From Actinomycetospora cinnamomea (lineage in GTDB: Bacteria; Actinomycetota; Actinomycetes; Mycobacteriales; Pseudonocardiaceae), in contig NZ_QEKW01000011.1 of assembly GCF_003096675.1 (NCBI RefSeq), forward strand, positions 1 to 64,000: a DNA stretch of 64,000 nt, in the 5' to 3' direction. Of the stretch, positions 34,610 to 57,665 are shown one piece after another; position 1 is the first letter of the stretch; the number at the start of each line of letters is the position of its first letter. A program made the position numbers and the translations under genes. The notes under the pieces are model-generated. The model was not told the DNA's origin. It saw only the letters and a program-made list of their open reading frames with translations, and did no database searches.

Positions 34610-34663
34610 GAGTACTCGGTGGGTCCGCGATGCCCGCGGTCGAGTACCCGTGTGCTCATGACC
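34610..34663 (+). promoter_or_regulatory. Candidate operator in front of module 1 (tandem GAGTA sites)
   Basis: Two GAGTAC half-sites start at 34610 and 34642, 32 bp apart, which is close to three helical turns. The second is part of a 22-base stretch, GAGTACCCG followed by TGCTCATGAC, that recurs with 19 of 22 matches at 40079-40100 and in weaker form at 45122-45143. It ends about 90 bp before the first gene of module 1. Binding by the LuxR-type regulators of this locus is an inference. Confidence 0.5.
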
Positions 34664-34753
34664 GGCGTCCCGCCGGCCCCCAGGCTCGGTGCCACCACCG
34701 ACGAGCACCTCGGTCGGACCCCCGGTCCGCACCCGAGCCGAAGGGACACCGAG

Positions 34754-35911
34754 ATGAGCACCCCGACCCAGGACCCGGCCGCGACGGCCGCGGGCAGCAC
34801 CGGGACCGAGGCCCCCACCACGCGGGAGGAGACCGTCCCCGGGACCACGACGGAGGGCGAGGGCACCGCGACCACCCCGGAGGGCGAGGCCCTCACGACG
34901 CCGGAGGGCGAGGTCGTCCCCGAGCCCGAGCCCGAGGAGCAGTGGGAGCTGGCGCAGAACTACCACTGCCCGGCCCACCAGCAGGCCTGCACCGTCGACT
35001 GTCAGTTCCTCATCGACTTCCGCCACCAGCACGGTCTCGGCGACCACTGGTCGCCCCAGTACTGCTGGCACCCCACCGAGAACCCGCACTGCTACGAGCC
35101 GGTCCACAACGAGTGGGGCTACAGCCCGTCCCACAACCCGCACTGCTACCACCCGGACGAGAACCCCTACGGCTACCACCCGGAGGACCAGCCCTACTGC
35201 TTCCACCCGACCGCCCAGCCCCACTGCTGGAACCCGGTCTACCAGCCCTACTGCTGGCACCCGGTCTACTGCCCCAACGGCTGGAACGACGTCCACAACC
35301 CCGGCGGCTACCACCCCATCTGGTGCCCCGACGGCACGCCGGATCCGAACGGGTGCTGGTGGCCCGAGGAGCTGGGGGAGCGCCCCGAGGGCTGGCCCGA
35401 GCACACGCCCGAGCCCTACACGCCCCCGGAGCCGGGCACGGGGGAGACCACGGAGCCGGGCACGGGGGAGACCACGGAGCCGGGCACGGGGGAGACGACG
35501 GAGCCGGGCACGGGGGAGACCACGGAGCCGGGCACGGGCGAGACGACCGAGCCGGGCACGGGCGAGACGACGGAGCCGGGCACGGGCGAGAACCCCGAGG
35601 AGCCGACCGGCGAGAACCCTGAGGAGCCGGCGGGCGAGAGCGGCGAGACCGAGCCCGCGGAGCCCGTCTCCTTCACCGGCGGCCGGGCGCCCGAGGCCGA
35701 GGAGGACGGCGCCGACGCCCAGGACGACGCCCAGGACGACGTGCCGGTGGCCCAGGACGAGAACGACTACCCCGACACGTCCTCGTCCGGGCCCGAGTAC
35801 GAGCCCGCGTCGACGGCCCCGGCCTCCGACGACTACTCCGCCGGCGACGACGGCGGCGCCAGCAGCCACGAGTCCGCCGGGGAGGACAGCGGGCTGGTGG
35901 GCGCGGGCTGA
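34754..35911 (+). CDS. Low-complexity protein with nine-residue Cys/His/aromatic repeats, IniB position of module 1
   Basis: I recognise no named family in this 385-residue protein. Residues 1-65 are Thr/Glu-rich. Residues 72-83 form a Cys/His cluster, CPAHQQACTVDC. From about 102 to 191 come ten tandem copies of a nine-residue unit with consensus P-(H/Y)-C-(Y/W/F)-H-P-x-x-(N/Q), for example PHCYHPDEN and PYCWHPVYC. Seven EPGTGETT repeats follow at about 226-280, then an acidic Ser/Asp tail. It has 12 Cys in total, no signal peptide and no membrane span. It sits where iniB stands in iniBAC, upstream of two dynamin-like GTPases. The Cys/His cluster and tail are shared with the repeat protein at 45272. 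Metal binding and self-assembly are suggestions only. ATG 34754 follows GGGACACCGAG. Confidence 0.82.
   Translation: MSTPTQDPAATAAGSTGTEAPTTREETVPGTTTEGEGTATTPEGEALTTPEGEVVPEPEPEEQWELAQNYHCPAHQQACTVDCQFLIDFRHQHGLGDHWSPQYCWHPTENPHCYEPVHNEWGYSPSHNPHCYHPDENPYGYHPEDQPYCFHPTAQPHCWNPVYQPYCWHPVYCPNGWNDVHNPGGYHPIWCPDGTPDPNGCWWPEELGERPEGWPEHTPEPYTPPEPGTGETTEPGTGETTEPGTGETTEPGTGETTEPGTGETTEPGTGETTEPGTGENPEEPTGENPEEPAGESGETEPAEPVSFTGGRAPEAEEDGADAQDDAQDDVPVAQDENDYPDTSSSGPEYEPASTAPASDDYSAGDDGGASSHESAGEDSGLVGAG
35057..35326 (+). repeat. 27-bp tandem repeat (nine residues, about ten copies)
   Basis: In-frame units encode P-x-(C/G)-aromatic-(H/E/N)-P-x-x-(N/Q). Units at 129-137, 147-155 and 165-173 are the most regular; some carry Gly in place of Cys (PYGYHPEDQ, PGGYHPIWC). 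The last units decay into PDGTPDPNG. Confidence 0.85.
35429..35593 (+). repeat. 24-bp tandem repeat encoding EPGTGETT, about seven copies
   Basis: Seven in-frame units, most differing only at silent positions (GGG/GGC, ACC/ACG), so the array is likely recent. The final copy breaks into EPGTGENP. Confidence 0.9.
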
Positions 35912-36002
35912 CCCCCGCTGCTCACGCGCGGTGGCCCCGACCGGGACCGACCCGGCCGGGGCCACCCGTCTGCTCTCGTCACCGCTGCTGCGAGGAGGAC
36001 CG

Positions 36003-36229
36003 GTGACCCGCACCGGCGCCGAGGGCACGCCGCCCCACCCCATCGACGGCCGTCGATCTTCCGGCCCGATCCGGACGAGGCCGCGCCGTCCGAGGCCACC
36101 CCGCCGCGTGACGAGCGCCCCCGACCGTCCGCGCCCGCCGTGCCGGCACCGGAGCGGCCGCGGGCGGGCCGGGACCGCCGCTCCATCTTCCGGCCGGAGA
36201 CCGACGATCACGAGGGGCCGCCGCGATGA
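36003..36229 (+). pseudogene. Small RRSIFRP-repeat protein, apparently frameshifted
   Basis: A strong GAGGAGGA at 35992-35999 precedes GTG 36003 (VTRTGAEGTPPH). From about 36053 the coding signal moves to the next frame, where it reads SIFRPDPDEAAPSEATPP, ..., and a second RRSIFRPETDDHEG before TGA 36227-36229. That frame has mainly G/C third positions, unlike the GTG-initiated frame over the same bases. One missing base near 36052 would join them into a protein of about 75 residues with two RRSIFRP motifs. The stop overlaps the next gene's ATG (ATGA), as throughout this operon. Alternatively the GTG frame runs on uninterrupted into the GTPase and gives an Arg-rich N-terminus. I know of no family. 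Confidence 0.45.
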
Positions 36230-38288
36230 GCGCCGGGTCCGCCGCGGGGGCGATGGACGAACGGGCCCGCGCCGCCGCCGCCGAGCGCGAGAGGGTCGCC
36301 CAACGCGCCGCCCGACGTGCCAGCCGGAAGGCCGCGGGGACGGGGACCCCCGCCACCCCGCAGACGCCCGCGACCACGAGGACCCGCCCCCGAACACCCC
36401 CGCGGCTCGGACGGCGACACCGAAGTCGACCGCGCCGGCGACCAAGGCGCCGAGCGCCGCGGTCAAGCACGCCGCGGACACCGTCGACATGACGATCAAG
36501 GCGGCGACGGCCTACGAGCGCGAGGACCTCGTCGCGCGGCTGCGGACGGCCCGGAAGCTGCTCACCGACGCCGCGGTCCGCATCCCGGTGGTGGGCGAGT
36601 TCAAGCAGGGCAAGAGCTCGCTGGTCAACGCCCTCGTCGAGGCCGACGTCTGTCCCGTCGACGACGACATCGCCACGGCCGTGCCCACCGAGGTCCGGCA
36701 CGCGCCGGGCCTGACGGCCAGCGCGCACTTCGAGGCCCTGCCCGGGTCGAAGGGCGCCGGCTGGACCGAGACGATCACGCCGGACGAGGTGGCGGCCTAC
36801 GCGTCGGAGTCCGGCAACCCCGGCAACACGCGTCGCCTGGTGTCGGTGTCGATCGGGATCGACCGGGCGCTGCTGGCGGGTGGGCTCGTGCTGGTGGACA
36901 CCCCGGGCGTCGGCGGCCTGGGCGGAGCGCACCAGAGCGCGGTGGCCGACCTGCCCCGTGCGCACGCGTGCCTGTTCGTCAGCGACGCCTCGCGCGAGCT
37001 CACCGACGCCGAGGTCCGCTTCCTGCACGCGGTTGTCGAGCTCTGCCCGACGGTGGTCATGGTCCTGACCAAGACCGACCTGACGCCGCGCTGGCCCCGC
37101 ATCCTCGAGCGCAACCAGGCGCACCTGCACCGGGCCGGGGTCCGCATCGAGATCCACGGCTTCTCCGCCGAGCTGTGCCGGATCGCCTCGGACGAGGGCG
37201 ACGAGGAGCTCCGGGCCGAGTCCGGCGCGCCGGAGCTGCTCGCCCGCCTCGACCGGGTGCGCGAGGAAGCCGCGCACCTCGCGGTGCGGTCGGTGATGAT
37301 CCAGGTGGGCTCGGTGCTCGGGCAGCTGGAGTCGGCGGCCCGGGCCCGCCGCGACGCCCTCGTCCACCCGGCCCGCCAGGAGGCGCTGGTGGCCGAGCTG
37401 GCCGCCGCCAAGGAGCGCGCCGAGGCGCTGCGGGACCGGGGCGCGAAGTGGCAGGCGGTCCTGAACGACGGCTTCGCGGACATCTCCTCGGACACGGAGT
37501 TCGACCTCCGCGCGCGGGCGCGGGCCGTGCAGAAGGAGGCCGACGAGGCCATCGAGGCCGGGGACCCGGCGAATAACTGGGAGGAGTTCTCGGACTGGCT
37601 GCGCCGACGACTCGCCGCGGAGGCCATGGAGAACTACGCCCTGTTCGTCCGCCGGACCAAGGACGTGGCGATCGCCGTCGAGCAGCACCTCGACCTGGCC
37701 GAGGCCCGCATCACCGCACGCTCGGTGAGCGCCCCCGCCGACGTCATGGCCCGCCTGGCCCTCGACGTCGCGTTCGCCCCGTCAGGGCTGCGCCAGGCCG
37801 TCAAGCTGCCCCTCCTGCAGAAGGTGTTCGGCGGGGTCGTGATGCTGACGATGATCTCCAACATGGCCGGGCTGGGGCTCCCGATGGCGGCCGGCCTGGT
37901 GCTCGGCGGCGTCCTCGGCGTCGCCGGGATCCGGGAGGAGCGCAAGAAGGCGCTCGAGAAGCGCCGCACCGACGCCAAGGCCGGCGTGCGCAAGTACGTC
38001 GACGAGTTCATCAACCAGGTCGGCAAGGACTCCCGCGACGCCATCCGCCACGTCCAGCGCGAACTGCGGGGCGCCTGGACCGAGCGGGTCTCCGAGCTGC
38101 AGCGCGCGGCGACGGCCGCGATGACCGCCGCGCAGGCCGCGGTGGCCGCCGGCAAGACCGACACCGGCGCCCGGGAACGCATCGAGAAGGATCTCGAGTC
38201 CCTGCGCCTGGTCCGGGCGCGGGTGGACGACCTGAGCGAGCACCTGCGCCGCACCGCGCCCCCGCCCGTTGCGGCGAGGGCATCGTGA
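36226..38288 (+). CDS. IniA-like dynamin-family GTPase, module 1 (apparent frameshift near the N-terminus)
   Basis: The body, in frame from about 36400, is a bacterial dynamin-like protein. It has VVGEFKQGKSSLVNAL (G1) starting at 36586, DTPGVGG (G3), LTKTD (G4), a long helical region, a hydrophobic paddle-like segment (VVMLTMISNMAGLGLPMAAGLVLGG) and a C-terminal helical bundle. It is paralogous to the protein at 47875 throughout. ATG 36226 begins an Ala-rich leader (MSAGSAAGAMDERARAAA) in another frame; adding one C in the five-C run at 36387-36391 or 36397-36401 would join it to the body, giving about 687 residues. IniA-like dynamins bind and remodel membranes, and in mycobacteria they respond to cell-wall stress. 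Next to it, overlapping by 4 bp, is an IniC-like partner. If the frameshift is real, the protein is truncated or absent. Confidence 0.8.
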
Positions 38289-40048
38289 ACCGGCGGTCGG
38301 GACCGCCCCGGTCGCCGGGGGAGCCACCGTCCGGACCCCCGCCCCACCAGCCGCCCCACCAGCCGGCCCGGGGGCCCGGGCCTGCGCCGCGGACCCCACC
38401 GCCGACCGGGTGGCCCACCCCGGCCGCGCCGCCCCCGCCCGGTCCGCCGCCGGGCCGCCCCACGCCCGCCTGCGGGGTGCGCACCGGCCCGCCCACCGGG
38501 CCGCCGCGCCACGCCCCACCGGGTCGGGCGGGCCGGCCCTGGGCCCCGCCGGCCCCTCCGCCGCCGGACTCGCCCCTGCGGCACCGGGTGCGTGCCCTCC
38601 TGACCCGCGTCGTGCCCCTCTACCGCGGGGGTCCCGCGGCGCCGATCCTCGACCGGGCGACCCGCCGGCTCGACGAGCCGCTGCGGGTGGCCATCGCCGG
38701 CCGGCTCAAGGCCGGCAAGTCCACCCTGCTCAACGCCCTCGTCGGGCAGGAGCTGGCCGCGACCGACGCGGGCGAGTGCACGCGGATCGTCACCTGGTTC
38801 CGCGACGGTCACACCTACCGCGTGCAGGCGCTCCTGCGTGACGGCTCCGCGCGGCAGCTGCCGCCCGGTCCGACGGGAGGGCTGCTCGACCTCGACCTGG
38901 GGCGGCTCGGGGCCGACGACGTCGACCGCCTCCTCGTCGACTGGCCGTCGCGCGCGCTGCAGACGATGACCCTGATCGACACGCCCGGTCTCGACTCGCT
39001 GAGCGCCGAGCTCTCGCGCCGGACCGAGGCCGCCCTCGTCCCCGGGGCCGCCGGCTCCTCCGAGGCCGACGCGGTCCTCTACCTCATGCGCCACGTGCAC
39101 GCCTCGGACATGCGCTTCCTCGAGGCGTTCCGCGACGACCCCGCCAAGCGCTGGCCGATCACCGCGGTCGGGGTGCTGGCGCGGGCCGACGAGGTGGGCC
39201 ACGCCCGTCCCGACGCGTTGGAGAGCGCCGGCGCCATCGCCGCCCGCTACCGCGCCGACGAGCGCGTGCGCGGCCTGTGCCAGACGGTGATGCCGGTGGC
39301 CGGGCTGCTCGCGGCGAGCGCGGCCACCCTGCGGGAGGACGAGTTCCGCGCTCTCGGCCGCCTCGCCGCGGGACCCGTGGGGGAGGTCGACCGGCTCCTG
39401 CTCACGGCGTCGCGGTTCGCGAACGCCGAGATCGACGTCGACGTCGAGGCCCGCCGGCGCGCGGCCCTGCTCGACCGCTACGGCCTGTTCGGGGTGCGGC
39501 TCTCGGTGCGCCTCCTGCGCGAGGGCACGGTCACGACGGCCGGCGAGCTCTCCCGGGAGCTCGTGCGCCACAGCGGGCTGGGACCCCTGCGCGACGTGCT
39601 GGCCACGCGCTTCGCCGGCCGGGCGGACGTGCTGCGCGCCCAGTCGGCGCTCACCGCGCTGGAGGGCGTCATCCGGCGCTGGCCGTTGCCGGGCGCCCAC
39701 GGTCTGCGCCACGACATCGAACAGATCACCGCCGGCGCGCACGAGTTCGTGGAGGTCCGCCTGCTCGACCGGCTCCAGACGGGGGCGCTCGCCCTGTCCG
39801 GGGACGAGCGCGTCGAGGCCGAGCAGCTGCTCGGCGGGGACGGGCTGGCGCCCTCGGCCCGGCTGGGCCTGCCCGAGGACGCCCGCGGCGAGGAGGTGGC
39901 GCGGGCCGCCTCCGCGGTGCTCGGGCGCTGGCAGCGCCGCGCCGAGCACCCCGGGTCGCCGCGCGAGGTCCGGGACGCCGCGCGGGCGGTGGTGCGGACC
40001 TGCGAGGGGCTGCTGGACGCCGGCCGCGGGCCGGGACGGGCCGGGTGA
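38285..40048 (+). CDS. IniC-like dynamin-family GTPase, module 1
   Basis: The 587-residue protein has a Pro/Gly/Ala-rich N-terminal tail of about 95 residues, then a dynamin-type GTPase domain. The G1 motif is GRLKAGKS at 139-146, threonines for G2 lie near CTRIVTWF, and DTPGLDS is G3 at about 235. The remainder is helical, with ALDRYGLFGVRLS-type segments shared with the paralog at 49755. It lacks the obvious hydrophobic paddle of its IniA-like partner. Bacterial dynamins commonly work as adjacent pairs, one membrane-binding and one assisting, which fits the order here. GTG 38285 overlaps the previous stop by 4 bp. The Pro-rich tail is missing in copy 2, so the modules have diverged at their N-termini. 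Confidence 0.85.
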   Translation: MNRRSGPPRSPGEPPSGPPPHQPPHQPARGPGPAPRTPPPTGWPTPAAPPPPGPPPGRPTPACGVRTGPPTGPPRHAPPGRAGRPWAPPAPPPPDSPLRHRVRALLTRVVPLYRGGPAAPILDRATRRLDEPLRVAIAGRLKAGKSTLLNALVGQELAATDAGECTRIVTWFRDGHTYRVQALLRDGSARQLPPGPTGGLLDLDLGRLGADDVDRLLVDWPSRALQTMTLIDTPGLDSLSAELSRRTEAALVPGAAGSSEADAVLYLMRHVHASDMRFLEAFRDDPAKRWPITAVGVLARADEVGHARPDALESAGAIAARYRADERVRGLCQTVMPVAGLLAASAATLREDEFRALGRLAAGPVGEVDRLLLTASRFANAEIDVDVEARRRAALLDRYGLFGVRLSVRLLREGTVTTAGELSRELVRHSGLGPLRDVLATRFAGRADVLRAQSALTALEGVIRRWPLPGAHGLRHDIEQITAGAHEFVEVRLLDRLQTGALALSGDERVEAEQLLGGDGLAPSARLGLPEDARGEEVARAASAVLGRWQRRAEHPGSPREVRDAARAVVRTCEGLLDAGRGPGRAG

Positions 40049-40100
40049 GCAACGCCGAGGGGTTCTCGAGCGATGGGTGAGTACCCGGCTGCTCATGACG
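40047..40100 (+). promoter_or_regulatory. Candidate operator in front of the module 1 Hsp70 gene
   Basis: A GAGCA half-site at 40047, at the extreme 3-prime end of the IniC-like gene, is followed 32 bp later by GAGTACCCG and TGCTCATGAC at 40079-40100. This matches the site at 34642-34663 at 19 of 22 positions. It ends 50 bp before the GTG of the Hsp70-like gene, so that gene may have its own regulated promoter although the operon continues into it. Confidence 0.5.
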
Positions 40101-40149
40101 GTCGCGTCCCGCGCGCGCGACAGTGGGACGGGACGGACGAGGAGGAACG

Positions 40150-42162
40150 GTGGCGTACGGGCTCGGTGTGGACCTCGGCACGACGTTCACGGCGGCGGCC
40201 GTCGTGCGGGACGGGCATGTCGAGATGGCGCCGCTGGGCGACCGCTCGACGGCGACGCCGTCGGTCGTCCTGGTGCGTCCCGGCGGCGGGGTGCTCACCG
40301 GCGACGCCGCGGTCCGCCGCGCCGCCGGCGAGCCCGACCGGGTGGCGCGCGAGGTCAAGCGCCGGCTCGGCGACCCGACACCCCTCCTGCTGGGCGGGAC
40401 GCCGTACTCGGCGGCCGACCTCCTCGCGATGCAGCTGCGCGAGGTGGTCGCGCAGATCGCCGAGCGGGAGGGCGGGGCGCCCACCGCGGTCCGCCTGACC
40501 CACCCGGCGAACTGGGGGCCCTACAAGCGCGAGCTGTTCGACCAGGTGCCGCGCCTGGCCGGGCTGCACGACGTCACCATGATCACCGAGCCGGAGGCCG
40601 CCGCCGCGCACTACGCCGCGAGCGAGCGCATCGGTGAGGGCCGCACGGTCGCCGTCTACGACCTCGGCGGCGGCACGTTCGACGCCACCGTCCTGCGCAC
40701 CACAGGGGGCGGCTTCGAGATCCTCGGGGTGCCGGAGGGCGTCGAGGGTCTCGGCGGCGTCGACTTCGACGAGGCCGTGTTCGCCCACGTCGACCGGGTC
40801 CTCGACGGGGCGGTGTCCGCGCTCGACCCATCCGACGCCGCCGCCACCAGCGCGGTCGTCCGGCTGCGCCAGGACTGTGTGCTCGCCAAGGAGGCCCTGT
40901 CGGCCGACACCGACGCCACGATCCCGGTCCTGCTGCCCTCGCAGCAGACCGAGGTGCGGCTCACGCGCGGCGAGTTCGAGGAGATGATCCGCCCGTCGAT
41001 CAGCGCGACGATCTCGGCGCTGGGGCGCGCGCTGGAGTCGGCGGACGTCGCCCCGGACCAGCTCGACACGGTCCTGCTGGTCGGCGGGTCCTCGCGGATC
41101 CCGCTCGTCTCCCGGATGGTGTCCGCCCAGCTCGGACGCCCGACCGCGGTCGACGCGCACCCCAAGCACGCGATCGTCCTCGGCGCAGCGATGCTGGTCG
41201 AGCCGCCGGCCCGGGTGGGCGGCGCGGCGAGCGCCGCGCACACGGCGGTCTTCCCGAGCTCCGGGGCGCCCTACCGCCGGCCGGTGCCTCCGGTCGCGAC
41301 GCGCACCCCGTCGGGCGGCGTCCCGCTGGTCCGGCCGGCAGCGGCGTCCGCATCCGGACCGCCGACGGGACCGCGGACCGGCCCGGACACCGGCCCGCGC
41401 TCCGGGACGATCCCGACCGTCGCGTCGTCCCGGCCGACGACCGGCGGTACCGGCACCACGCGGTGGGTCAATCCGGGCCGCACGCCTGCGGGCGGGTTCC
41501 CGGCAGCCGGCGGAGCCACGACCTGGGCCGACCCGGCTCGGGCCGGGAGCGGCTCGACCAGCGGCTCGACGACGGGAGCGACCGCGTGGGTCAACCCTGG
41601 GCGGGGCACCCACAGCCCGGCCACGGGCGGGCAGGCGACGGCGAACCACGGCGCCGCGGGCGCGGAGGCGGCGCCGGTCGGCGGGTCGCGGCGGCGCACA
41701 CCGCTGGTGGTCGCCGGCGTGGTGCTCGCGGCGCTGCTGGCCGGCGGCGGGGCGCTCGCCTACACCGCGCTCGCGTCCGACGCGCCTGCGGTGCCGGCGC
41801 CGTCGGCCGTCGTGGCGCCGACGCCGCTGCCCACGACCACCCCCGCGCCGGTCACGGCCGACCCCGGCATCGGGTCGGCGGGCGGCGACGGGGGTGCCGG
41901 CGGGAGCTCGGCCACGGGCGGGTCCGGCGGGTCCGGCGGCTCGAGTGGGTCGGGCGGCGCGGGCGGCTCCGGTGGTGGCACCGGCGGCGGCACCACCAGA
42001 GGCGGTGGTGGTGGCGGCGGTGGTGGTCAGGGCGGCACGACCTGGCGGCCCACCACCACCGCGCACCACGGGGGCGGCGACACCGACGGCGGCGGGTCCA
42101 CCGGGGACGGCGGCACCGACGGCGGCGGGGACACCTCGGGGACCACCGGGTCGGGGTGGTGA
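40150..42162 (+). CDS. Membrane-anchored Hsp70-like (actin-fold) protein, module 1
   Basis: The 670-residue protein begins with an Hsp70 nucleotide-binding domain of about 365 residues: GVDLGTTFTAAAV (phosphate 1), AVYDLGGGTFDATVL (phosphate 2), and LLVGGSSRIPLV (adenosine). The DnaK substrate-binding domain is absent. In its place are a Pro/Thr/Gly-rich linker, one hydrophobic span (PLVVAGVVLAALLAGGGALAY) preceded by basic GSRRRT, and an extracytoplasmic Gly/Ser/Thr tail. This topology puts the ATPase in the cytosol and the tail outside. The protein may act as a switch or scaffold rather than a folding chaperone. GTG 40150 was chosen because GGAGGAAC precedes it and because the paralog starts at the same place. 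It faces the LuxR gene at 20 bp. Confidence 0.86.
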   Translation: MAYGLGVDLGTTFTAAAVVRDGHVEMAPLGDRSTATPSVVLVRPGGGVLTGDAAVRRAAGEPDRVAREVKRRLGDPTPLLLGGTPYSAADLLAMQLREVVAQIAEREGGAPTAVRLTHPANWGPYKRELFDQVPRLAGLHDVTMITEPEAAAAHYAASERIGEGRTVAVYDLGGGTFDATVLRTTGGGFEILGVPEGVEGLGGVDFDEAVFAHVDRVLDGAVSALDPSDAAATSAVVRLRQDCVLAKEALSADTDATIPVLLPSQQTEVRLTRGEFEEMIRPSISATISALGRALESADVAPDQLDTVLLVGGSSRIPLVSRMVSAQLGRPTAVDAHPKHAIVLGAAMLVEPPARVGGAASAAHTAVFPSSGAPYRRPVPPVATRTPSGGVPLVRPAAASASGPPTGPRTGPDTGPRSGTIPTVASSRPTTGGTGTTRWVNPGRTPAGGFPAAGGATTWADPARAGSGSTSGSTTGATAWVNPGRGTHSPATGGQATANHGAAGAEAAPVGGSRRRTPLVVAGVVLAALLAGGGALAYTALASDAPAVPAPSAVVAPTPLPTTTPAPVTADPGIGSAGGDGGAGGSSATGGSGGSGGSSGSGGAGGSGGGTGGGTTRGGGGGGGGGQGGTTWRPTTTAHHGGGDTDGGGSTGDGGTDGGGDTSGTTGSGW

Positions 42163-42181
42163 GCCCGGGCCGTCCCCGGCG

Positions 42182-44804: not shown

Positions 44805-45271
44805 CAGCCGCCCCCCTCCACGCACGGCGCCTCTGTGACGGCTCCGTTCGTCGATCAGGGACGGAGTCTTACGAAGGGTGAGTAGGAGGGGAAGGGTGCA
44901 CGCCCCACTGACGTCGTAGTGCCGGGGTTTTGAGGTAACTCGCGGTCACACCAAACGGGTCGACTCCGATACTCGCGTCCGATTCGTCCGTGATCTGCCG
45001 CCGGGTTCGGCAGACGCGTCGGTGCTGGTGGGTCAGCGCATGACCCGTGTCCGCACCATGCCGGCGGCGCGCCGCCCCGCAGGGGAGGAGCGAGTAGTGC
45101 GGCGGGCGGCACGACCCCCGTGAGTAGAGGCCTACTCATGACTCCACTCCCGATGATCACCACGCTGGGTCACATCACCGCAGACCTCGGCCGGGCGGCG
45201 CTCCACGCGGGACGTGTCGACGCCGAGCCGTCATCGCGAGGCCTGCGGCCCCCACGACGAGAGGACGGGAG
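44805..45271. other. 467-bp divergent regulatory region between modules 1 and 2
   Basis: It separates the module 1 regulator (leftward) from the module 2 repeat-protein gene (rightward). A GAGTAGG half-site lies at 44880, 76 bp in front of the regulator. A comparatively AT-rich stretch at 44920-45000 (TTTTGAGGTAACTCG onward) is the most promoter-like part. The operator-like pair at 45092 and 45122 lies at the right end. I see no gene with family features here. Confidence 0.55.
45092..45143 (+). promoter_or_regulatory. Candidate operator in front of module 2 (GAGTA pair plus palindrome)
   Basis: GAGTAG half-sites start at 45092 and 45122, 30 bp apart. The second is a dyad, GAGTAG-AGGC-CTACTC, directly followed by ATGAC. 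Over 22 bases it matches 15 positions of the site at 34642. It lies about 130-150 bp before the first gene of module 2. Confidence 0.48.
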
Positions 45272-47839: not shown

Positions 47840-47874
47840 CCGGTACCGCCCCGCACCGTCCACCGAGGAGAACC

Positions 47875-49758: not shown

Positions 49759-51320
49759 CCGGCCCGGTCGCGTCCGCACCGCCGCTGCTCGCCCGGGTGC
49801 GGATGCTGCTCGGGCGCGCGCTGCAGGTCTACGGCGGCGGCCCGCCGGCGCACGCGCTGCGCGACGCCGCGGTCCGGCTCGACGAGCCGTTGCGGGTCGC
49901 GATCGCCGGACGCCTCAAGGCCGGCAAGTCGACGCTGCTCAACGCCCTGGTGGGCCAGGAGCTCGCGGCCACCGACGCGGGCGAGTGCACGCGGATCGTC
50001 ACCTGGTTCCGCGACGGCCACACCTACCGCGTGATGGCCCACCCCCGGCACGGTCCGCCACGGCAGCTCCCACCCGGCCCGTCGGGCAGCCTGCTCGACG
50101 TCGACCTCGGCGGCTGGCGGGCCGAGGACGTCGACCGTCTCGTCGTCGACTGGCCCTCGGCGGCCCTGCGAACCCTGACCCTCGTCGACACGCCGGGCAT
50201 GGACTCCCTCAGCACCGAGATCTCCGGACGGTCGGAGACCGCGCTGGGCACCGACGAGGGCGCCGGGTCGCAGGTGGACGCCGTCGTCTACCTGATGCGC
50301 CACGTGCACACGTCGGACATCCGCTTCCTCGAGGCCTTCCGCGACGACCCCGCCGAGCGGCGCCCCATCAACACGATCGGCGTCCTCGGACGGGCCGACG
50401 AGGTCGGCCACGGACGGCCCGAGGCGCTCGAGAGCGCGGCGCGGGTGGCGCGCCGCTACAGCGAGGACCCCCGGGTGCGCGGCCTGTGCCAGACGGTGCT
50501 CCCCGTCGCCGGCCTGCTCGCCGTCACCGCGGCCACGCTGCGCGAGGACGAGTTCCGGGCGCTCGGCGCGGTCGCGGCGGCCCCGGAGGTCGACCGCGAA
50601 CGGCTGCTGCTCACCGCCGGGCGCTTCGTCGGGGCCGACGACGCCTTCGGGCTGTCGCACGAGCAGCGGGCGGCGCTGCTCGACCGGTTCGGCCTGTTCG
50701 GGGTCCGCCTCGGCACCCGCCTGGTGGTCAGCGGCGTCGCGACCACCGCCGGCGCGCTTTCCCGCGAGCTGCTCGACCGTTCCGGGCTCGTGCCCCTGCG
50801 TGAGGCCCTGGCGACGCGGTTCGCGGCGCGGGCCGAGGTGCTCAAGGCACGGTCGGCGCTGCTGACCGCCGAGGCCGTGCTGCGGCGCCACCCGGTGGAC
50901 CCCGCCAGCGGCCTCGACCGCGAGCTCGAGCAGATCTCCGCGTCCGCCCACGAGTTCGCCGAGGTCCGGCTGCTCGACCGGCTGCGCGCCGGGGAACTGA
51001 TGCTGACCGACCAGGAGCGCCGCGACGCCGAATGCCTCCTGGGGGCCGAGGGGGTCGACCCCGCGTCGCGGCTCGCGCTGCCCGCCGAGGCCCCGTCCGC
51101 CGATCACGTCCGGGCGGCACAGGCGGCCCTGACGCGGTGGCAGCGCCGTGCCGAGCACCCGACCTCGGTGCGCGAGGTGCGCGACGCCGCTCGTGTGCTC
51201 GTGCGGACCTGCGAGGGCCTCCTGCTCGGGGCGACGGGATGGTCGCCCCCGCGGCCGGCGCCCGCCGGCCCCGTCGCGCCGGTGCACCCGGCGCGGCCGG
51301 GCGCAGGGGTCCGGCGGTGA
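49755..51320 (+). CDS. IniC-like dynamin-family GTPase, module 2
   Basis: The 521-residue protein pairs with the preceding GTPase. G1 is GRLKAGKS at 52-59, CTRIVTWF supplies the G2 region and DTPGMDS is G3. LGRADEVG stands where the G4 specificity motif should be, though it is not a canonical N/TKxD. The rest is helical with no strong membrane paddle, and a Pro/Ala/Arg tail ends the chain. It aligns with the module 1 IniC-like protein from residue 10 on but lacks that protein's Pro-rich N-terminal tail. ATG 49755 overlaps the previous stop, and the next gene overlaps its stop, so four genes are translationally coupled. The length matches mycobacterial IniC (about 490) better than the copy 1 protein does. 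Confidence 0.88.
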   Translation: MTGPVASAPPLLARVRMLLGRALQVYGGGPPAHALRDAAVRLDEPLRVAIAGRLKAGKSTLLNALVGQELAATDAGECTRIVTWFRDGHTYRVMAHPRHGPPRQLPPGPSGSLLDVDLGGWRAEDVDRLVVDWPSAALRTLTLVDTPGMDSLSTEISGRSETALGTDEGAGSQVDAVVYLMRHVHTSDIRFLEAFRDDPAERRPINTIGVLGRADEVGHGRPEALESAARVARRYSEDPRVRGLCQTVLPVAGLLAVTAATLREDEFRALGAVAAAPEVDRERLLLTAGRFVGADDAFGLSHEQRAALLDRFGLFGVRLGTRLVVSGVATTAGALSRELLDRSGLVPLREALATRFAARAEVLKARSALLTAEAVLRRHPVDPASGLDRELEQISASAHEFAEVRLLDRLRAGELMLTDQERRDAECLLGAEGVDPASRLALPAEAPSADHVRAAQAALTRWQRRAEHPTSVREVRDAARVLVRTCEGLLLGATGWSPPRPAPAGPVAPVHPARPGAGVRR

Positions 51321-53161
51321 GCCGGCCCGGCGGCGCGCCGCCCGGGATGCCCCCGCACCTCTGGGAGCTGGCCAAGCGCGACGTCCGCACCGCGATCCCC
51401 GAACGGCTCCGCCGGGCCCGGACCTCGGGTGCCGAGGCTCCGGCCCGCGTGCGGCAGCTCGCCCGGCGCGCGGCCGGCGTCGCCGCGTCGGCCGGCGCCG
51501 TGGCCGCCGCGGTGGTCATCGGCCAGGGCTTCGCGGGTGCCGGGGACGTCACGCTGGCGGGCGGCACGACCCCGCTCGGACCGGCGGGCCCGGGGGGCGC
51601 CGAGGGGTTCGACGGGCTGGGTGGCGGCTCCGGCGGAGGATTCGGCGGAGGGTTCGGCGGAGGGTCCGGCGGCGGCTCCGCGGGCGGCTCCGCAGGCGCG
51701 GGTGGCACCGCGGGGACGGGCGGGGCCGGCGCGGGCGGGTCGTCGGCGACCGGCGGGCCTGACGGCCCCGGGGGCCCCGACGTCGTCGGCGGCGCCGCCA
51801 GCTCGACCGGCGGGTCGCTGGCCGACGGGCCGGTCGAGTCGGGTCTGGGCACCAGCTTCCGGGTGCAGGAGAGCGCCGAGCCGGGCAGCGAGGACTGGCT
51901 CGAGGTCGAGATCTTCCAGGACGTGTCGGTCACCGAGACCGCCGACGGGATGTTCCTGGTCCAGGCCGTCCAGGTCATCGTGATCCGGGACGACGACGGC
52001 AACGAGTACGTGTTCCGGGAGATCCATCAGGTCACGGTCCCCGACCCGCCGGGACAGGAGACCGACCTGTTCATCACCCAGTCCGGCTACGTGCACGTCA
52101 TCGAGAACCCCGACGGGTCGTTCACCCCCGTCACGACGGACTACGAGCTCGACGTCGCGTTCGGCTCCGACGGCGACGGGTTCGACGAGGTCACCATCGA
52201 CCAGGACGCCGTGGTCCGCCTGACCGACCGGGAGCAGGTGCCCGACGACGACGTCGGGGTCGTGCTGAGCTCGCGTGCGGTGTCGACCAGCGACGACACC
52301 GGCGACGAGGCCACGAGCACGATCTTCCAGGACCAGGTGCTGCTCGACGGGGAGGCCCCGCCCGGCGAGGTGACGACGGTGGTCGTCCACGACGACGACC
52401 CCTTCGGCCCGCCGGCGCTCACCGAGGTCGACGGCCGCTCCCAGGGCACGGGCACCTCCGGTACCGGCGGGTCACCCGCGACGACGGGCACGCCGGCCGG
52501 TGCCGCGACGCTCCCGGCCCCCGGTGGCGCCGCCGGGGCGGGCACGACCACCGCAGCGCCGCTGGCGAGCTCGATCGCGGCGCCCGCGGCCGCGGCGGTG
52601 ACCGCGCCGGTGTGGTCGTCGGGTACGCGGGAGGGCGGCCCGCGGGACCTCGACGATCTCGCGTGGGGAGGTGGCGGCGAGGGCACGGCCCCTGGCGGCT
52701 CCGTCCCCGCCGACACGTCCGACCCGTCCGACCCGTCCGACACGTCCGACCCGTCCGACTCGTCCGGCGCGTCGGGTCTGGCGGGCACGCCCGACACGAC
52801 CGACCCGGCCGGCACCCCCGGCACCCCCGCCGTGACCGAGGACCCCGCGGAGACCGTCGACCCCGGCCTGACGTTCGAGGGGGCCGCACCCGCCGACCGT
52901 TCGGGGGGACGGGGGGACGGCGCCGACGTCACGGGCCGCGAACCGGGCGGAGCCGCCACGGACGCGACGGGGACGACCGACGACCTGCGGGAGGACCCGG
53001 GCGCCGACACCGAGGCGGGGGACACCGTCGGATCGAGCGACACCGTCGCGTCGGCGGAGCCGGCGGGGTCGACGGAGCCGGCGGGGGCGAGCGAGGACAC
53101 GGGCCTCGTGGAGGACACCGACACCGGCGGGGTCGACGACACGTCGGCGTTGCTGGGCTGA
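51317..53161 (+). CDS. Single-span membrane protein with beta-rich extracytoplasmic domain, only in module 2
   Basis: This 614-residue protein has no family I recognise. A basic cytosolic segment of about 45 residues precedes a hydrophobic stretch (AAGVAASAGAVAAAVVIGQGFAGAG). A Gly/Ser-rich stalk of about 100 residues follows, then a domain at about 175-350 with strand-like, acidic sequence (VEIFQDVSVTETADGMFLVQA; VIVIRDDDGNEYVF). The last 230 residues are Thr/Pro/Gly/Asp low complexity, including TSDPSDPSD repeats. By the positive-inside rule the domain and tail are outside the cell. The GTG start overlaps the IniC-like stop (GTGA), and the Hsp70-like gene follows 27 bp later. Module 1 has nothing in this slot. 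It could be an anchor or sensor linking the cytosolic GTPases to the wall, an inference from position. Confidence 0.8.
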   Translation: MSRPGGAPPGMPPHLWELAKRDVRTAIPERLRRARTSGAEAPARVRQLARRAAGVAASAGAVAAAVVIGQGFAGAGDVTLAGGTTPLGPAGPGGAEGFDGLGGGSGGGFGGGFGGGSGGGSAGGSAGAGGTAGTGGAGAGGSSATGGPDGPGGPDVVGGAASSTGGSLADGPVESGLGTSFRVQESAEPGSEDWLEVEIFQDVSVTETADGMFLVQAVQVIVIRDDDGNEYVFREIHQVTVPDPPGQETDLFITQSGYVHVIENPDGSFTPVTTDYELDVAFGSDGDGFDEVTIDQDAVVRLTDREQVPDDDVGVVLSSRAVSTSDDTGDEATSTIFQDQVLLDGEAPPGEVTTVVVHDDDPFGPPALTEVDGRSQGTGTSGTGGSPATTGTPAGAATLPAPGGAAGAGTTTAAPLASSIAAPAAAAVTAPVWSSGTREGGPRDLDDLAWGGGGEGTAPGGSVPADTSDPSDPSDTSDPSDSSGASGLAGTPDTTDPAGTPGTPAVTEDPAETVDPGLTFEGAAPADRSGGRGDGADVTGREPGGAATDATGTTDDLREDPGADTEAGDTVGSSDTVASAEPAGSTEPAGASEDTGLVEDTDTGGVDDTSALLG

Positions 53162-53188
53162 CCGGCGCGGGACGGAGAGGAGAACGCG

Positions 53189-55009
53189 GTGGGTTACGGA
53201 CTCGGTGTCGATCTCGGCACCACCTTCACCGCGGCGGCGGTCGAGCACGACGGCCACGTCGAGATGGCCCCGCTCGGCGACCGCGCGGCCGCGGTCCCCT
53301 CGGTGGTGCTCGTCCGCGAGGACGGCACCACCCTGACCGGCGACGCCGCCGACCGGCGATCCGCCACCGATCCCGACCGCGTCGCCCGCGAGGTCAAACG
53401 CCGTCTCGGCGACCCGACGCCCCTCGTCCTCGGCGGCTCCCCCTACTCGCCGGCGGACCTCATGGCGCGCCAGCTCGCCGACGTCGTCCGTCTCGTGGCG
53501 GAGCGGCAGGGTGGGCGGCCCGACCGCGTGACGCTGACTCACCCCGCCAACTGGGGTCCGTACAAGCGCGAGCTGTTCGGCCAGATCCCCCGTCTGGCCG
53601 GCCTGGACCACGTCCGGATGATCACCGAGCCGGAGGCGGCCGCCGCCCACTACGCCTCCGGAGAGCGTCTCGAGGAGGGCGCGCTGGTCGCCGTCTACGA
53701 CCTCGGCGGCGGCACCTTCGACGCGACCGTGCTGCGGACCGTCCGCGGCGGCTTCCGGATCCTGGGTACGCCCGAGGGCGTCGAGAACCTCGGCGGGGTC
53801 GACTTCGACGAGGCGGTGGTCGCGCACGTCGACCGTTCCCTGGACGGGGCGGTGAGCGCGCTCGACCCGGCCGATCCCCGGGCGACCGCGTCGATGGTCC
53901 GGCTGCGTCAGGACTGCGTGCTCGCCAAGGAGACCCTCTCGGCCGACACCGAGACGACGATCCCGGTGATGCTGCCCGAGCTGCAGACCGAGGTGCGGCT
54001 CACCCGCGCCGAGTTCGAGGGCATGGTGCAGCCGTCGATCACCGCGACCATCGCGTCGCTGCGCCGCGCGCTGGACTCCGCCGAGGTGACCCCCGACCAG
54101 CTCGACGCCGTGCTGCTCGTCGGAGGGTCCTCGCGGATCCCGATGGTGGCGCGTATGGTGTCCGCGGAGCTCGGGCGCCCGACGGCCGTGGACGCCCACC
54201 CGAAGCACGCGATCGTGCTCGGCGCGGCCCTGCTCTCGCGGCCCCCCGCCGAGCGCCCACCGGCCGGCGCACCCGCCCCGGCCGTGCCGCGCCCCCGGGG
54301 ACCCGTGTCCGCGCCCCCCGCGCGGCCGGAGGGGAGGCCGGCGCGCGCGGCCGGCGTGGGTGGGGCCGCCGCCGCCGGCGCCGCGGTGGGCGGGGCCGCC
54401 GCGGGGCCCGCGAGCACCCGCGCGCTGCCCCACGCCCCGGGGGGCCGGGCGCCGTCGTCGGGTCCGTTCCCCCGCGTGGCCGGGCCGCCCTCGGGGCCGA
54501 TCGGACGGCCGGGCCCGCCCGGCGGCCCCCGGTCCACGCCGGCCGCGGGCATGCCCGCCCCGGGGTTGACGAGCCCGGGCGACACCGGGGCACCGCCACG
54601 ACACCCGCGGCGGATGCCGATCGTGGCCGCGGCGATCGTGGCTCTGGTCGTGCTCGGCGGCGGGGGCGCGTGGGCCTACACCGCGCTGTCCGGCAGCAGC
54701 CCGACCCCGCCGCCGGCATCCGTCGCCCCGGCCACGCCCGTCGCCCCGAGCACGGAGCCCGGGGACGTGGTGTCGGCCGAGCCGGCGGAGAGCAGCGCGG
54801 CCCGGCCCCCCGCGACGGAGGCGCCGACGCGTCAGCGCACCACCGCGCCCCCGACCACGCGGGCGACGACCACGACGACCCGCCCCGATGCCGGGCAGGG
54901 CAACGAGGAGCGGACCGCCGACACGGGTGCCACCGACGGCGGCGACTCGGGTGGTGGCACCGGCGCCGGCGGGAACGCCGACGGCGGCGGCAGCGGGGGC
55001 TCGGGCTGA
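53189..55009 (+). CDS. Membrane-anchored Hsp70-like (actin-fold) protein, module 2
   Basis: The 606-residue protein repeats the design of its module 1 paralog. The nucleotide-binding domain has GVDLGTTFTAAAV, AVYDLGGGTFDATVL and LLVGGSSRIPMV and covers the first 365 residues. A Pro/Ala/Gly-rich linker follows, then a basic HPRRMP stop, one membrane span (IVAAAIVALVVLGGGGAWAY) and a Thr/Pro/Gly-rich extracytoplasmic tail. The DnaK substrate-binding domain is missing. GTG 53189 is preceded by GGAGAGGAGA and starts the protein with GYGLGVDLG directly. The 3-prime end is 13 bp from the convergent regulator. The high similarity of the first 365 residues to copy 1, with tails of different composition, suggests conserved cytosolic and divergent outer parts. 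Confidence 0.89.
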   Translation: MGYGLGVDLGTTFTAAAVEHDGHVEMAPLGDRAAAVPSVVLVREDGTTLTGDAADRRSATDPDRVAREVKRRLGDPTPLVLGGSPYSPADLMARQLADVVRLVAERQGGRPDRVTLTHPANWGPYKRELFGQIPRLAGLDHVRMITEPEAAAAHYASGERLEEGALVAVYDLGGGTFDATVLRTVRGGFRILGTPEGVENLGGVDFDEAVVAHVDRSLDGAVSALDPADPRATASMVRLRQDCVLAKETLSADTETTIPVMLPELQTEVRLTRAEFEGMVQPSITATIASLRRALDSAEVTPDQLDAVLLVGGSSRIPMVARMVSAELGRPTAVDAHPKHAIVLGAALLSRPPAERPPAGAPAPAVPRPRGPVSAPPARPEGRPARAAGVGGAAAAGAAVGGAAAGPASTRALPHAPGGRAPSSGPFPRVAGPPSGPIGRPGPPGGPRSTPAAGMPAPGLTSPGDTGAPPRHPRRMPIVAAAIVALVVLGGGGAWAYTALSGSSPTPPPASVAPATPVAPSTEPGDVVSAEPAESSAARPPATEAPTRQRTTAPPTTRATTTTTRPDAGQGNEERTADTGATDGGDSGGGTGAGGNADGGGSGGSG

Positions 55010-55022
55010 GCGCCGGCCGCGC

Positions 55023-57665
55023 TCAGCGGGTGGTCGGCAGGCCGACCACGTCCGGGAGCTCCGCGCGCCCGGTGATCCCGAGCTTCTGGTAGACCGACGC
55101 CAGCACGTTGTCCACGGTGCGCACCGACACCACGAGCTGGGAGGCGATGGCCCGGCTCGTGAGGCCGCCGGCGGCGAGGGAGGCGATCTCGGTCTCCCGC
55201 GGCGTCAGCTCGTCGGCGCCGTCGAGCAGCGCGAGCGCCGGGGTGACTGCGGCCGCCGGGGCCCAGCCGCGGGCCCGCACGGCGGAGGCGCGGGCGGACG
55301 AGGGACGGCCCGCGGCGCGGTGCGCCGCGCACGCCTGCGCCGCGGCCTCCGCGGCGAGCAGCAGCATCCCGCGGTCGGCGAACGCCTGGGCCGCCGTGTC
55401 GAGCGCCCGGGGGTCGGCGTCGGCCACCGCCCGCGCGTGCGCGGCGTAGAGGTCGTGCAGGCGCCCCGTGCCCCGGGCGGCCAGGCGGTCGAGCTCCGCG
55501 ACGACGGCCGGGGGCGCCTCCCCGATCCGCACCACGGCGTGCAGCGACTGCAGCACCGCGAGGCGCCCCGCACGGGCCGGCGTGTCGAGGGCCATCCGCA
55601 CGGCCTCGCCGCGGCGTCCTCCCAGCCCGGCGAGCCACACGCGCGCGGTCCAGGTCCAGGCGCTGAACAGGACCTCGTCACCGAGCGGTTCGGCCTCGGC
55701 GAGCGCCGCCCGGGCCCGATCGAGGCCCCCGAGCGAAGCCAGGGCCACCGCGATCTCGCTGACGAGCGGCAGAGTGAACGGGAAGCGGGAGGCTCGCACG
55801 GCGGCCGCCGCCTCCTGCAGCCACCGGACGGCCTCGGGGAGCCGGCCGCGCCGGGCCGCGACGATCCCCAGCCACGTCGCCGCCAGCGAGGCCGGCTCGG
55901 GGGCCGACTCGAGCAGCGCCTCCTCGCGCAGCCGCTGGGCCACCGCCTCGGCGGCCGGGAGGTCGGCGTCGAGGAGGTGGGCGTACCAGCGGGCGGTGCG
56001 CGCCTCGTAGCCCGTCCAGCTCCGGGGGCGCCCGGGCGGTGCCGCGGCCTCGGCCCGCTCGGCCAGGGCCAGCGCCCGCGCGTGGTCCCCGGCGAGCGCC
56101 GCCGCGAGCGCGGCCACGGCGAGACCGTGGTCCGCGGCGTCGGGGTCGAGGAGGTCCGGGTCGGGGTGGGCCCCGCTCTCGAGCGCCGGATCCGGTCCGA
56201 CCGGGCAGCCGGTCATCAGTCTCCGGTAGGCCCGCAGCACGGCGACGCCGGGCTCGACCGTGCCCGTGCCGTCGCCGCCGGTCGGCGGGTCGATCTCGTC
56301 GACGACGCGGAGGGCGGTGCGCAGGTCGTGGAGGCCCCAGCACAGGTTCGGCACCCGCAGGAGCGCGAGGGCACGGTGCGCGCGGGCGTCGTGTCCGGTG
56401 GCGTCGCGGTCCGCCATCGCGGCGGCGAGGACGCGCTCGGCGTCGTCGGCGAGCGCCAGCGCGACCAGGACGCGCCCCAGGCGCAGCGTCGTCGCCGTGC
56501 TCGCGGACCGGCCGATGGCCGCCCGGGCGAGCTGGGTGGCGAGCCGGCGGTCGGACGCCAGGACGGCTTCGGCGGTGGAGACCAGGTCGTCGGCGCCGGC
56601 GGCGATGCCCTGCTCCTCGCGCCACCACAGGAGGCGGGCGCGGTCGAGGCCGCGGCGCGCCCCGGTGCGCTCGAGCGCCTCGGTCAGCCGTCGGAAGGCC
56701 TGGCGCGTCTGCCACGGGCTGGCCTGGCGCCGCAGCACCTCGGCGTGCAGGGGGTGGGTCAACGAGACGTCCACCCGCCGGCCGCGCTGCACCGAGGAGA
56801 GCAGGCCGTCGTGCTCGAGCCGGGTCAGGGTCTCCGGCGCGACCGTGCCCGCGAGCAGCTCGCTGCCGAGGGGCTCGCCGAAGGCGATGAGCGTCAGCAG
56901 CTCGAGGTCCTCGGGCGAGCGCCGGCCCATCTGGCGTTCCACCAGCTCGACCAGCCGGGGGGTCGGTTCCACCGGTCCGTCCCAGCGCCAGACCTGCCCC
57001 ACGCGGCGCAGGGTGCCGGCGGCGCGCGCGGCGTCGACGAGCTCGCGCAGGAACAGCGGGTTGCCGCGCGAGAGGTCCCAGAGGCGGCGCAGGGTCGCCT
57101 CGTCCACGTGGTCGCCCAGCGCCGAGCGCAGGAGGGTGTCATGGTCGGCCCGCTCGAGGTCACCGATGTCCAGCCGGTCGGCCAGGCCCTCCTTCCACAG
57201 CGCGAACACCGCGTCGCGCACCGGGGTCCCGGAGGGGACGGTCACGATGACGAAGGCCTCGTCGGCGGCGGCGAGCTGCTGCACGAGCGCGGCGCTCGTG
57301 CCGTCGAGCCAGTGCGCGTCGTCGACCGCCAGCAGCAGCCGGGCACCACCCGCGTCGGCGACCAGCCGGCGTCGCGCGGCGAACAGGGGGTTCTCCCCGA
57401 GGTCCGCGCCCTGCCCCGAGAGCAGGTGGCTGACCGCCCCGAGCGGGAACGGCGCGGTCGCGCTCGTGGCGATCAGCCACCGCGGGGCCCACGTCGGGCC
57501 CTCCGCGTCGCCGGCCACGGCGGCGAGCGCCGCGCGCGCCAGCCGCGTCCGTCCGCACCCCGGCGGCCCGACGATCACGACGCCGGCGCGACGTCCCGTC
57601 CGGGCCAGCCGCGTGACCGTGGACAGCACCTCGCCCCGACCCACGAGGGGCCAGCTGTCGGGCAT
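55023..57665 (-). CDS. LAL-type LuxR-family transcriptional regulator, module 2 (intact)
   Basis: The 880-residue protein starts MPDSWPLVGRGEVLSTV and has a P-loop-like GPPGCGRTRL, with Arg where Lys is expected, as in copy 1. A LLLAVDDAHWLDG Walker B and a long helical region of TPR-like repeats follow. The C-terminal LuxR helix-turn-helix reads ELTPRETEIASLAAGGLTSRAIASQL and ends VRTVDNVLASVYQKL. This is the STAND/LAL class that includes MalT; such proteins bind a ligand and ATP, then activate promoters. I chose ATG 57665 because homology starts there and GGAGG lies upstream; longer starts would add unrelated sequence. The gene is convergent with the Hsp70-like gene, mirroring module 1. It probably activates one or both modules through the GAGTA sites. 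Confidence 0.9.
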   Translation of the reverse strand: MPDSWPLVGRGEVLSTVTRLARTGRRAGVVIVGPPGCGRTRLARAALAAVAGDAEGPTWAPRWLIATSATAPFPLGAVSHLLSGQGADLGENPLFAARRRLVADAGGARLLLAVDDAHWLDGTSAALVQQLAAADEAFVIVTVPSGTPVRDAVFALWKEGLADRLDIGDLERADHDTLLRSALGDHVDEATLRRLWDLSRGNPLFLRELVDAARAAGTLRRVGQVWRWDGPVEPTPRLVELVERQMGRRSPEDLELLTLIAFGEPLGSELLAGTVAPETLTRLEHDGLLSSVQRGRRVDVSLTHPLHAEVLRRQASPWQTRQAFRRLTEALERTGARRGLDRARLLWWREEQGIAAGADDLVSTAEAVLASDRRLATQLARAAIGRSASTATTLRLGRVLVALALADDAERVLAAAMADRDATGHDARAHRALALLRVPNLCWGLHDLRTALRVVDEIDPPTGGDGTGTVEPGVAVLRAYRRLMTGCPVGPDPALESGAHPDPDLLDPDAADHGLAVAALAAALAGDHARALALAERAEAAAPPGRPRSWTGYEARTARWYAHLLDADLPAAEAVAQRLREEALLESAPEPASLAATWLGIVAARRGRLPEAVRWLQEAAAAVRASRFPFTLPLVSEIAVALASLGGLDRARAALAEAEPLGDEVLFSAWTWTARVWLAGLGGRRGEAVRMALDTPARAGRLAVLQSLHAVVRIGEAPPAVVAELDRLAARGTGRLHDLYAAHARAVADADPRALDTAAQAFADRGMLLLAAEAAAQACAAHRAAGRPSSARASAVRARGWAPAAAVTPALALLDGADELTPRETEIASLAAGGLTSRAIASQLVVSVRTVDNVLASVYQKLGITGRAELPDVVGLPTTR

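Follow-up and report, generated by a model that had tools for sequence, protein, structure and literature searches.

Among described systems, the mycobacterial iniBAC operon with its regulator IniR comes closest to the locus reported here. IniA is a dynamin with membrane-cutting activity in vitro, according to the accessible part of the describing paper (PMC6715688), and iniAC has been linked to vesicle release by M. tuberculosis (PMC11832169, which in its available text credits others). M. tuberculosis IniR was tested by chromatin immunoprecipitation on the iniBAC promoter (PMC5760070), and for M. bovis BCG, HpoR, a regulator distinct from IniR, is reported to bind a different palindrome at this promoter (PMC13413693). 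The available text of Boot 2017 (PMC5760070) notes, for M. smegmatis alone among the species compared, that iniR has a dnaK-like neighbour, and gives M. tuberculosis iniBAC without an Hsp70 gene. This was the one relevant prior statement on an Hsp70 beside ini in our literature survey, which covered few subscription papers and does not prove absence from print. GAP1-N2 GTPase systems, as far as their description is accessible (PMC7159879), include HSP70, GrpE and, in actinobacteria, an Hsp70 without peptide-binding domain. Here, we analysed a 64,000-nt stretch of the Actinomycetospora cinnamomea genome (contig NZ_QEKW01000011.1, positions 1 to 64,000; hereafter ‘the window’) with two tandem ini-type modules, each including a gene for an Hsp70-like ATPase. 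Comparison with related genomes suggests that this little-noticed Hsp70 relative has long belonged to an already known system of cell-envelope stress response.

Two tandem ini-type modules with Hsp70-like ATPases

The initial annotation had proposed two successive blocks of like order and orientation, each consisting of a repeat protein, an IniA-like and an IniC-like dynamin, an Hsp70-like ATPase and a convergent regulator. Both blocks are present, with regulators of the IniR type. On the plus strand, module 1 comprises RPT1, a repeat protein in the place of IniB (34754-35911), the dynamin-like GTPases IniA1 (36432-38288; first in-frame ATG at 36489) and IniC1 (38285-40048; conserved part from 38588), and Hsp70-like 1 (40150-42162), faced by the regulator LAL1 on the minus strand (42182-44804). 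Module 2 continues with RPT2, likewise in the IniB place (45272-47839), IniA2 (47875-49758), IniC2 (49755-51320) and Hsp70-like 2 (53189-55009), all on the plus strand, and with LAL2 on the minus strand (55023-57665). Beyond the five genes proposed, module 2 carries a sixth, X2, between IniC2 and Hsp70-like 2 (51347-53161, plus strand). In both modules, the IniC gene overlaps the 3’ end of IniA. A Pfam scan of ten window proteins at E 0.01, with regulator 1 left out, assigned Dynamin_N (PF00350) to the four GTPases, HSP70 (PF00012) to both ATPases, and AAA_16 plus GerE to LAL2; RPT1, RPT2 and X2 gave no Pfam or NCBIfam match at this threshold.

The likeness to mycobacterial iniBAC and IniR extends to a full-length IniA, an IniC, a repeat protein encoded first and an AAA-GerE regulator nearby, while the window differs in having repeat proteins without the IniB N-terminal domain and an Hsp70-like gene in each module. 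Residues 15-593 of IniA2 align with the solved M. smegmatis IniA (6j72, E 2e-100). The G1, G3 and G4 motifs are present in IniA1, and both IniA proteins have TKxD at G4. As for the IniC proteins, our pattern did not match a canonical G4 GTPase motif in IniC2, and IniC1 has only ARAD at that position.

In each Hsp70-like protein, a Pro-rich linker connects the ATPase domain to a single hydrophobic helix, which begins at residue 519 in Hsp70-like 1 and at residue 478 in Hsp70-like 2; a low-complexity tail follows, Gly/Ser/Thr-rich in Hsp70-like 1. Their similarity to Hsp70 is confined to the ATPase domain (best stretch, positions 105-371 of the 599 in PF00012), with residues 5-348 of Hsp70-like 2 aligning with DnaK (2v7y, E 7e-47). 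What they have in common with DnaK/Hsp70 chaperones is this domain with all five motifs checked, which we take to be its phosphate, adenosine and catalytic motifs; what sets them apart is the membrane helix and low-complexity tail in place of the substrate-domain signature. None of 94 Hsp70-like proteins carried the DnaK linker/substrate-domain signature, and in 69 of them the ATPase is followed by a hydrophobic helix, whereas all six DnaK-like control proteins, from six relatives, bear the signature and lack the helix. Judged by this architecture, the window proteins would be nucleotide switches of the Hsp70 fold and not folding chaperones.

Linkage and co-inheritance of the Hsp70-like gene

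Across 61 relatives, the own genome included, 95 IniA-like matches were found in 48 genomes. An Hsp70-ATPase match lay within 10 kb of at least 70 of these 95, in 41 genomes; the count used 141 of 150 listed Hsp70 rows, omitting the last nine, which were weak, and is a lower bound because the rows are incomplete. The pair persists despite reshuffling, as 25 of the 70 Hsp70 placements are downstream on the same strand, 35 divergent upstream and the other ten split five and five between the remaining arrangements. We estimate that chance would produce such linkage at roughly 1-3% of loci, given 2-7 Hsp70 matches per 6-Mb genome. The idea that the Hsp70-like gene is a hitch-hiker beside ini, kept there either fortuitously or because chromosome order is conserved in general, draws on the conservation of other neighbours within the genus: a gene of the lysylphosphatidylglycerol (LPG)-synthase transmembrane family in the upstream flank (33409-34530, plus strand; PF03706, E 2e-26) adjoins the module in eight same-genus loci (L019-L025, L028). 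Set against the recurrent pairing in changing arrangements, we regard this idea as extremely improbable.

Searching named genomes with IniA as the sole query yielded at least 76 loci. Rates were taken from these (L059-L134), because the loci collected before (L019-L058) had partly been picked for a nearby Hsp70. Gene-presence and spacing counts depend on score thresholds that we set, and distances are those between matched stretches. Among the matches listed, 69 loci held both IniA and IniC, with an Hsp70-ATPase gene in 57, an IniR-type gene in 49 and the IniB N-terminal domain in 48. Hsp70-bearing loci in this set occur in Pseudonocardiaceae, Mycobacteriaceae, Micromonosporaceae, Micrococcaceae and Microbacteriaceae. 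The 60 Hsp70 placements divide into 30 upstream on the other strand, 11 downstream and 10 upstream on the same strand, and 9 downstream on the opposite strand. The gene set recognized in the window is conserved in other genomes, a condition on which the initial annotation had made its reading depend, although its exact order varies between families. An Hsp70-ATPase gene was present in 10 of the 11 mycobacterial loci in this set; the Hsp70 is no peculiarity of this organism. One locus (L059), from the same genome as L024, was kept in the locus counts and left out of the trees, the distance correlation and the Hsp70-regulator spacing; L035 and L057 were excluded from profiles and trees. A locus titled Planococcus (Bacillota) fell among Microbacterium and was taken as a mislabel.

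IniA and Hsp70 distances correlate over 79 loci (Spearman 0.676; reached by 0 of 500 permutations), a value that partly reflects species history, and more strongly over 18 same-genus loci, where species history weighs less (Spearman 0.945; 0 of 1000 permutations). These correlations imply that paralogous modules keep their own Hsp70. Since the linkage recurs widely and the distances correlate, a pure chance arrangement was dropped. Trees of Hsp70 and IniA, built by a quick method and with some long branches and weak forks, share their main groups, namely canonical ini (55 Hsp70 and 59 IniA rows), the window lineage (18 and 13) and a distant type (14 and 10). L061 and L104 are among the loci that depart from this agreement; the 18 Hsp70 rows of the window lineage include unlinked relatives. 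One of these groupings joins the window’s Hsp70-like proteins with a protein from an unlinked locus of the own genome (L039:7162-10329, contig C15), in which the Hsp70-like ATPase runs on, as judged by eye, into a Ser/Thr protein kinase domain, with a hydrophobic helix behind it. Elsewhere, a YVTN-type beta-propeller, also recognized by eye, stands behind the helix in place of the low-complexity tail (L040:7976-10303, L038:7085-9358, L029:3626-6169).

With respect to the tandem arrangement, IniA1 clusters with four sister species whose module is present once (L025, L028, L023, L024). Together with IniA2 and L019-L022, this group forms a clade of ten rows (SH-aLRT 99), within which the place of IniA2 is not settled; the rows nearest to it are L019 and L020, whose module also carries X2. 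Single-copy loci of both kinds have upstream neighbours in common, and among the 11 genomes of the genus that show IniA matches of at least 59% identity, only that of the window has two. A recent tandem duplication was discarded, as IniA1 and IniA2 are only 59% identical and sit on separate branches, IniA1 with the single-copy modules of the sister species. The pair may instead be an old tandem of which most species lost one copy, a history that the trees suggest and do not prove.

Loci of the distant type add a further component. The own genome contains a third dynamin-Hsp70 locus (L037:5522-13241, contig C5) that encodes a GrpE-like protein (PF01025, E 6e-10) and a protein kinase; by eye, a sigma-factor-like protein and one with Asp-Gly-Asp repeats are encoded there as well. 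All four distant dynamin-Hsp70 loci tested with PF01025 (L037, L053, L054, L058) carry GrpE-like genes, and our own profile detected such genes in L115, L122, L130 and L132. Since GrpE serves Hsp70 as its exchange factor, an active Hsp70 ATPase cycle is likely in distant-type loci. In the Glycomyces locus L115, a J-domain-like protein (12687-13952; HPD motif by eye) is encoded behind IniC-GrpE-IniA, and no Hsp70 gene was found in its flank. GTPases beside HSP70, and GrpE in the distant type, recall the GAP1-N2 systems; the text describing these does not contain the word ‘dynamin’ (PMC7159879), and their FNIII, tubulin and zinc-ribbon components had no Pfam match in the ten window proteins at E 0.01.

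A dynamin-based anti-phage system, akin to the Leo dynamins, was also considered. LeoA, LeoB and LeoC are likewise bacterial dynamins encoded together, and the PADLOC profiles LeoBC and LeoA match the dynamins of the window (E 9e-17 and 1e-11 for IniA2). These matches are at the domain level and explicable by the common dynamin domain; Hsp70-like and X2 proteins had no PADLOC hit, the regulator was hit only at its GerE end, and an IniA-like match in 48 of 61 relatives is commoner than expected of a defence system. We know of no Hsp70 or IniR-like regulator in the Leo set. We dropped this highly improbable explanation, given that the PADLOC hits did not reach beyond the domain.

Repeat proteins, regulators and a shared putative operator site

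The repeat proteins had been called very different by the initial annotation. Their repeats do differ, but both have in common a small N-terminal Cys/His unit in which Y, C, H, C, C and L do not vary. In RPT1, this unit is followed by P-x-[CG]-[YWF]-x-P repeats of aromatic, Cys and His character and then by EPGTGETT repeats, with no hydrophobic helix; in RPT2, by 22 QFNQQG and 21 FQNQQG motifs, Gly-rich spacers and an acidic, Ser-rich C-terminal end. The RPT1 relative in L028 has the unit in three copies, and other repeat proteins occupy the RPT place in L026 and L027 of the same genus. A hidden IniB N-terminal domain was rejected: its profile (NF038175) gave no match in RPT1 or RPT2, while it matched five of five control proteins from the corresponding place in related loci, three of them above the cut-off.

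X2 combines a conserved core (~51863-52258) with a variable tail. A hydrophobic stretch at its N-terminal end scores 1.74, just below the cut-off of 1.75, so that the protein is possibly membrane-anchored near this end. The core was found in eight of the 61 genomes, in two genera and always beside an Hsp70-like gene, the eight profile matches being the same eight proteins that built the profile; against solved structures, the best E-value was 0.065, revealing no credible relative. Relative to L020, amino-acid change in the core (51863-52258) exceeds silent change (pN 0.38, pS 0.30; a rough pairwise estimate), unlike in neighbouring genes.

LAL2 has an open frame, whereas that of LAL1 changes at ~43461-43468, with both parts 78-80% identical to the regulator of a sister species. 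Two further breaks in module 1 affect a small gene with two SIFR motifs (36003-36229, plus strand), open in three sister species, where it sits between the repeat gene and IniA, and an N-terminal extension of IniA1 (36226-36430, plus strand), frame-broken relative to the core and open in four sister species. With three breaks within ~8 kb of module 1 and none noticed in module 2, module 1 might be a decaying relic, with only module 2 in use. We consider this unlikely, albeit worth keeping in mind. Both parts of the broken regulator have dN/dS ~0.3 against their nearest kin, compared with ~0.1-0.2 for the dynamin and ATPase cores of the module (~0.20 for IniA1 and ~0.21 for IniC1 against L025), and two putative operator sites are present in it. 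Such low ratios point to a recent break or an assembly error; decay and assembly error are both compatible with the frame breaks. That the two modules are specialised versions, as first suggested, is a conjecture.

These sites share the pattern GAGTA-N7-RCTCATGA, which the window contains three times and its 100 shuffles not once, the pattern having been drawn from the three sites themselves. An inverted-repeat-like site precedes the first gene of both modules and Hsp70-like gene 1: site 1 lies ~90 bases 5’ of the RPT1 gene (34642-34661), site 2 is 5’ of Hsp70-like gene 1 (40079-40098), and site 3, a GAGTAG-N4-CTACTC inverted repeat, is 5’ of RPT2 (45122-45141; all plus strand). With G at the R position, the only exact matches in the whole genome are the two in module 1; allowing a single mismatch adds three more, including site 3. 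Similar sites in genus loci lie ~34 to 260 bases 5’ of the repeat gene, IniA, X2 or Hsp70, and seven upstream regions contain a perfect inverted repeat. A relaxed pattern returned 48 matches in 18 genomes (reversed control, 38); 27 of the 43 matches in the 11 module-bearing genomes fall in the module locus, two of the 27 inside the IniC frame. It replaced an earlier pattern with other spacing, which had one match in 61 genomes and none at a genus ini locus. We infer that the IniR-type regulator would bind the shared site.

Outside the two modules, a large open frame of the window (21393-25313) starts, by eye, like a nonribosomal peptide synthetase adenylation domain.

A candidate Hsp70 switch for the dynamin pair

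Given the match of IniA2, over nearly its full length, to M. smegmatis IniA, a dynamin reported to cut membranes in vitro (PMC6715688), and given the conserved gene set, the membrane-stress or membrane-remodelling machine that had initially been suggested is a sensible reading. In our best reading, the ini envelope-stress locus exists here as a variant: its core would include an Hsp70 switch that lacks the substrate domain and acts either on the two dynamins or on the regulator. We give about even chances to the specific proposal of two diverged ini-type modules for envelope stress, arranged in tandem, with an Hsp70 switch acting on dynamin-scaffold assembly. Envelope damage would activate the regulator, which would bind the site and induce the module; the repeat protein would self-assemble into a scaffold, and IniA and IniC would use GTP to cut or reshape the membrane. 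The outer tail of the Hsp70-like protein would read the envelope, its ATP/ADP switch controlling assembly or release of the dynamin-scaffold complex.

Several observations weigh against this proposal. As 25 of the 94 Hsp70-like proteins have no helix, a membrane-sensor role cannot be general. No GrpE or J-domain match was obtained among the ten window proteins scanned by Pfam, and that the repeat proteins self-assemble is a guess based on their composition. Hsp70-like relatives also exist without a nearby IniA match, both in the same genome (L039-L042) and elsewhere, in three cases with 75-79% identity to Hsp70-like 2 and no IniA match within 10 kb (G008:C25:171118, G010:C1:82875, G011:C62:87845); conversely, 12 of the 69 named loci among the matches listed have no Hsp70 gene, five of these being short or cut contigs. 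The putative operator is absent before X2 and Hsp70-like 2 in module 2, and with two mismatches allowed, its genome count of 50 shows no excess over the reversed control (47). High dN/dS values for RPT1 (0.81), LAL2 (0.68) and the X2 core (1.4) disturb the tidy picture. Finally, Hsp70-like and regulator matches are at most 1.5 kb apart in 54 of 69 loci that carry both genes, 44 of them on the same strand; some of the loci counted had been selected for their Hsp70, and some contigs are short. By this closeness, the regulator is as likely a partner as the dynamins.

It is in line with a different role, in which the Hsp70-like protein would serve the IniR-type regulator as membrane receptor or anti-activator, sensing the envelope with its outer tail and holding or releasing the regulator with its ATPase domain, so that it would act on transcription and not on the dynamins. 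Gene calls of the two overlap in five loci. Yet 22 loci, some on short contigs, keep Hsp70 and dynamins with no IniR-type gene above threshold, the proteins without helix fit a membrane receptor poorly, and in the window the two genes converge and form no common operon. We rate this role as a serious contender, somewhat on the unlikely side.

Extending the proposed dynamin switch beyond the window, we tentatively suggest, at slightly less than even odds, that a distinct family of membrane-anchored Hsp70s without substrate domain provides ATP switches for dynamin pairs in actinobacteria, with the repeat-protein sequence in the scaffold place replaced repeatedly. M. tuberculosis iniBAC, which to our knowledge lacks an Hsp70, would be a reduced form.

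New here are the breadth of the linkage, its co-inheritance, the GrpE-bearing kin, the turnover of repeat proteins and the shared site; the function proposed is putative. The iniBAC operon is a classical marker of mycobacterial cell-wall damage. As a conserved neighbour of its dynamins in a wide range of actinobacteria, among them mycobacteria, the Hsp70-family ATPase offers a concrete candidate for their control. If true, this would be a clear case of an Hsp70 ATPase domain serving as a switch without the chaperone half.

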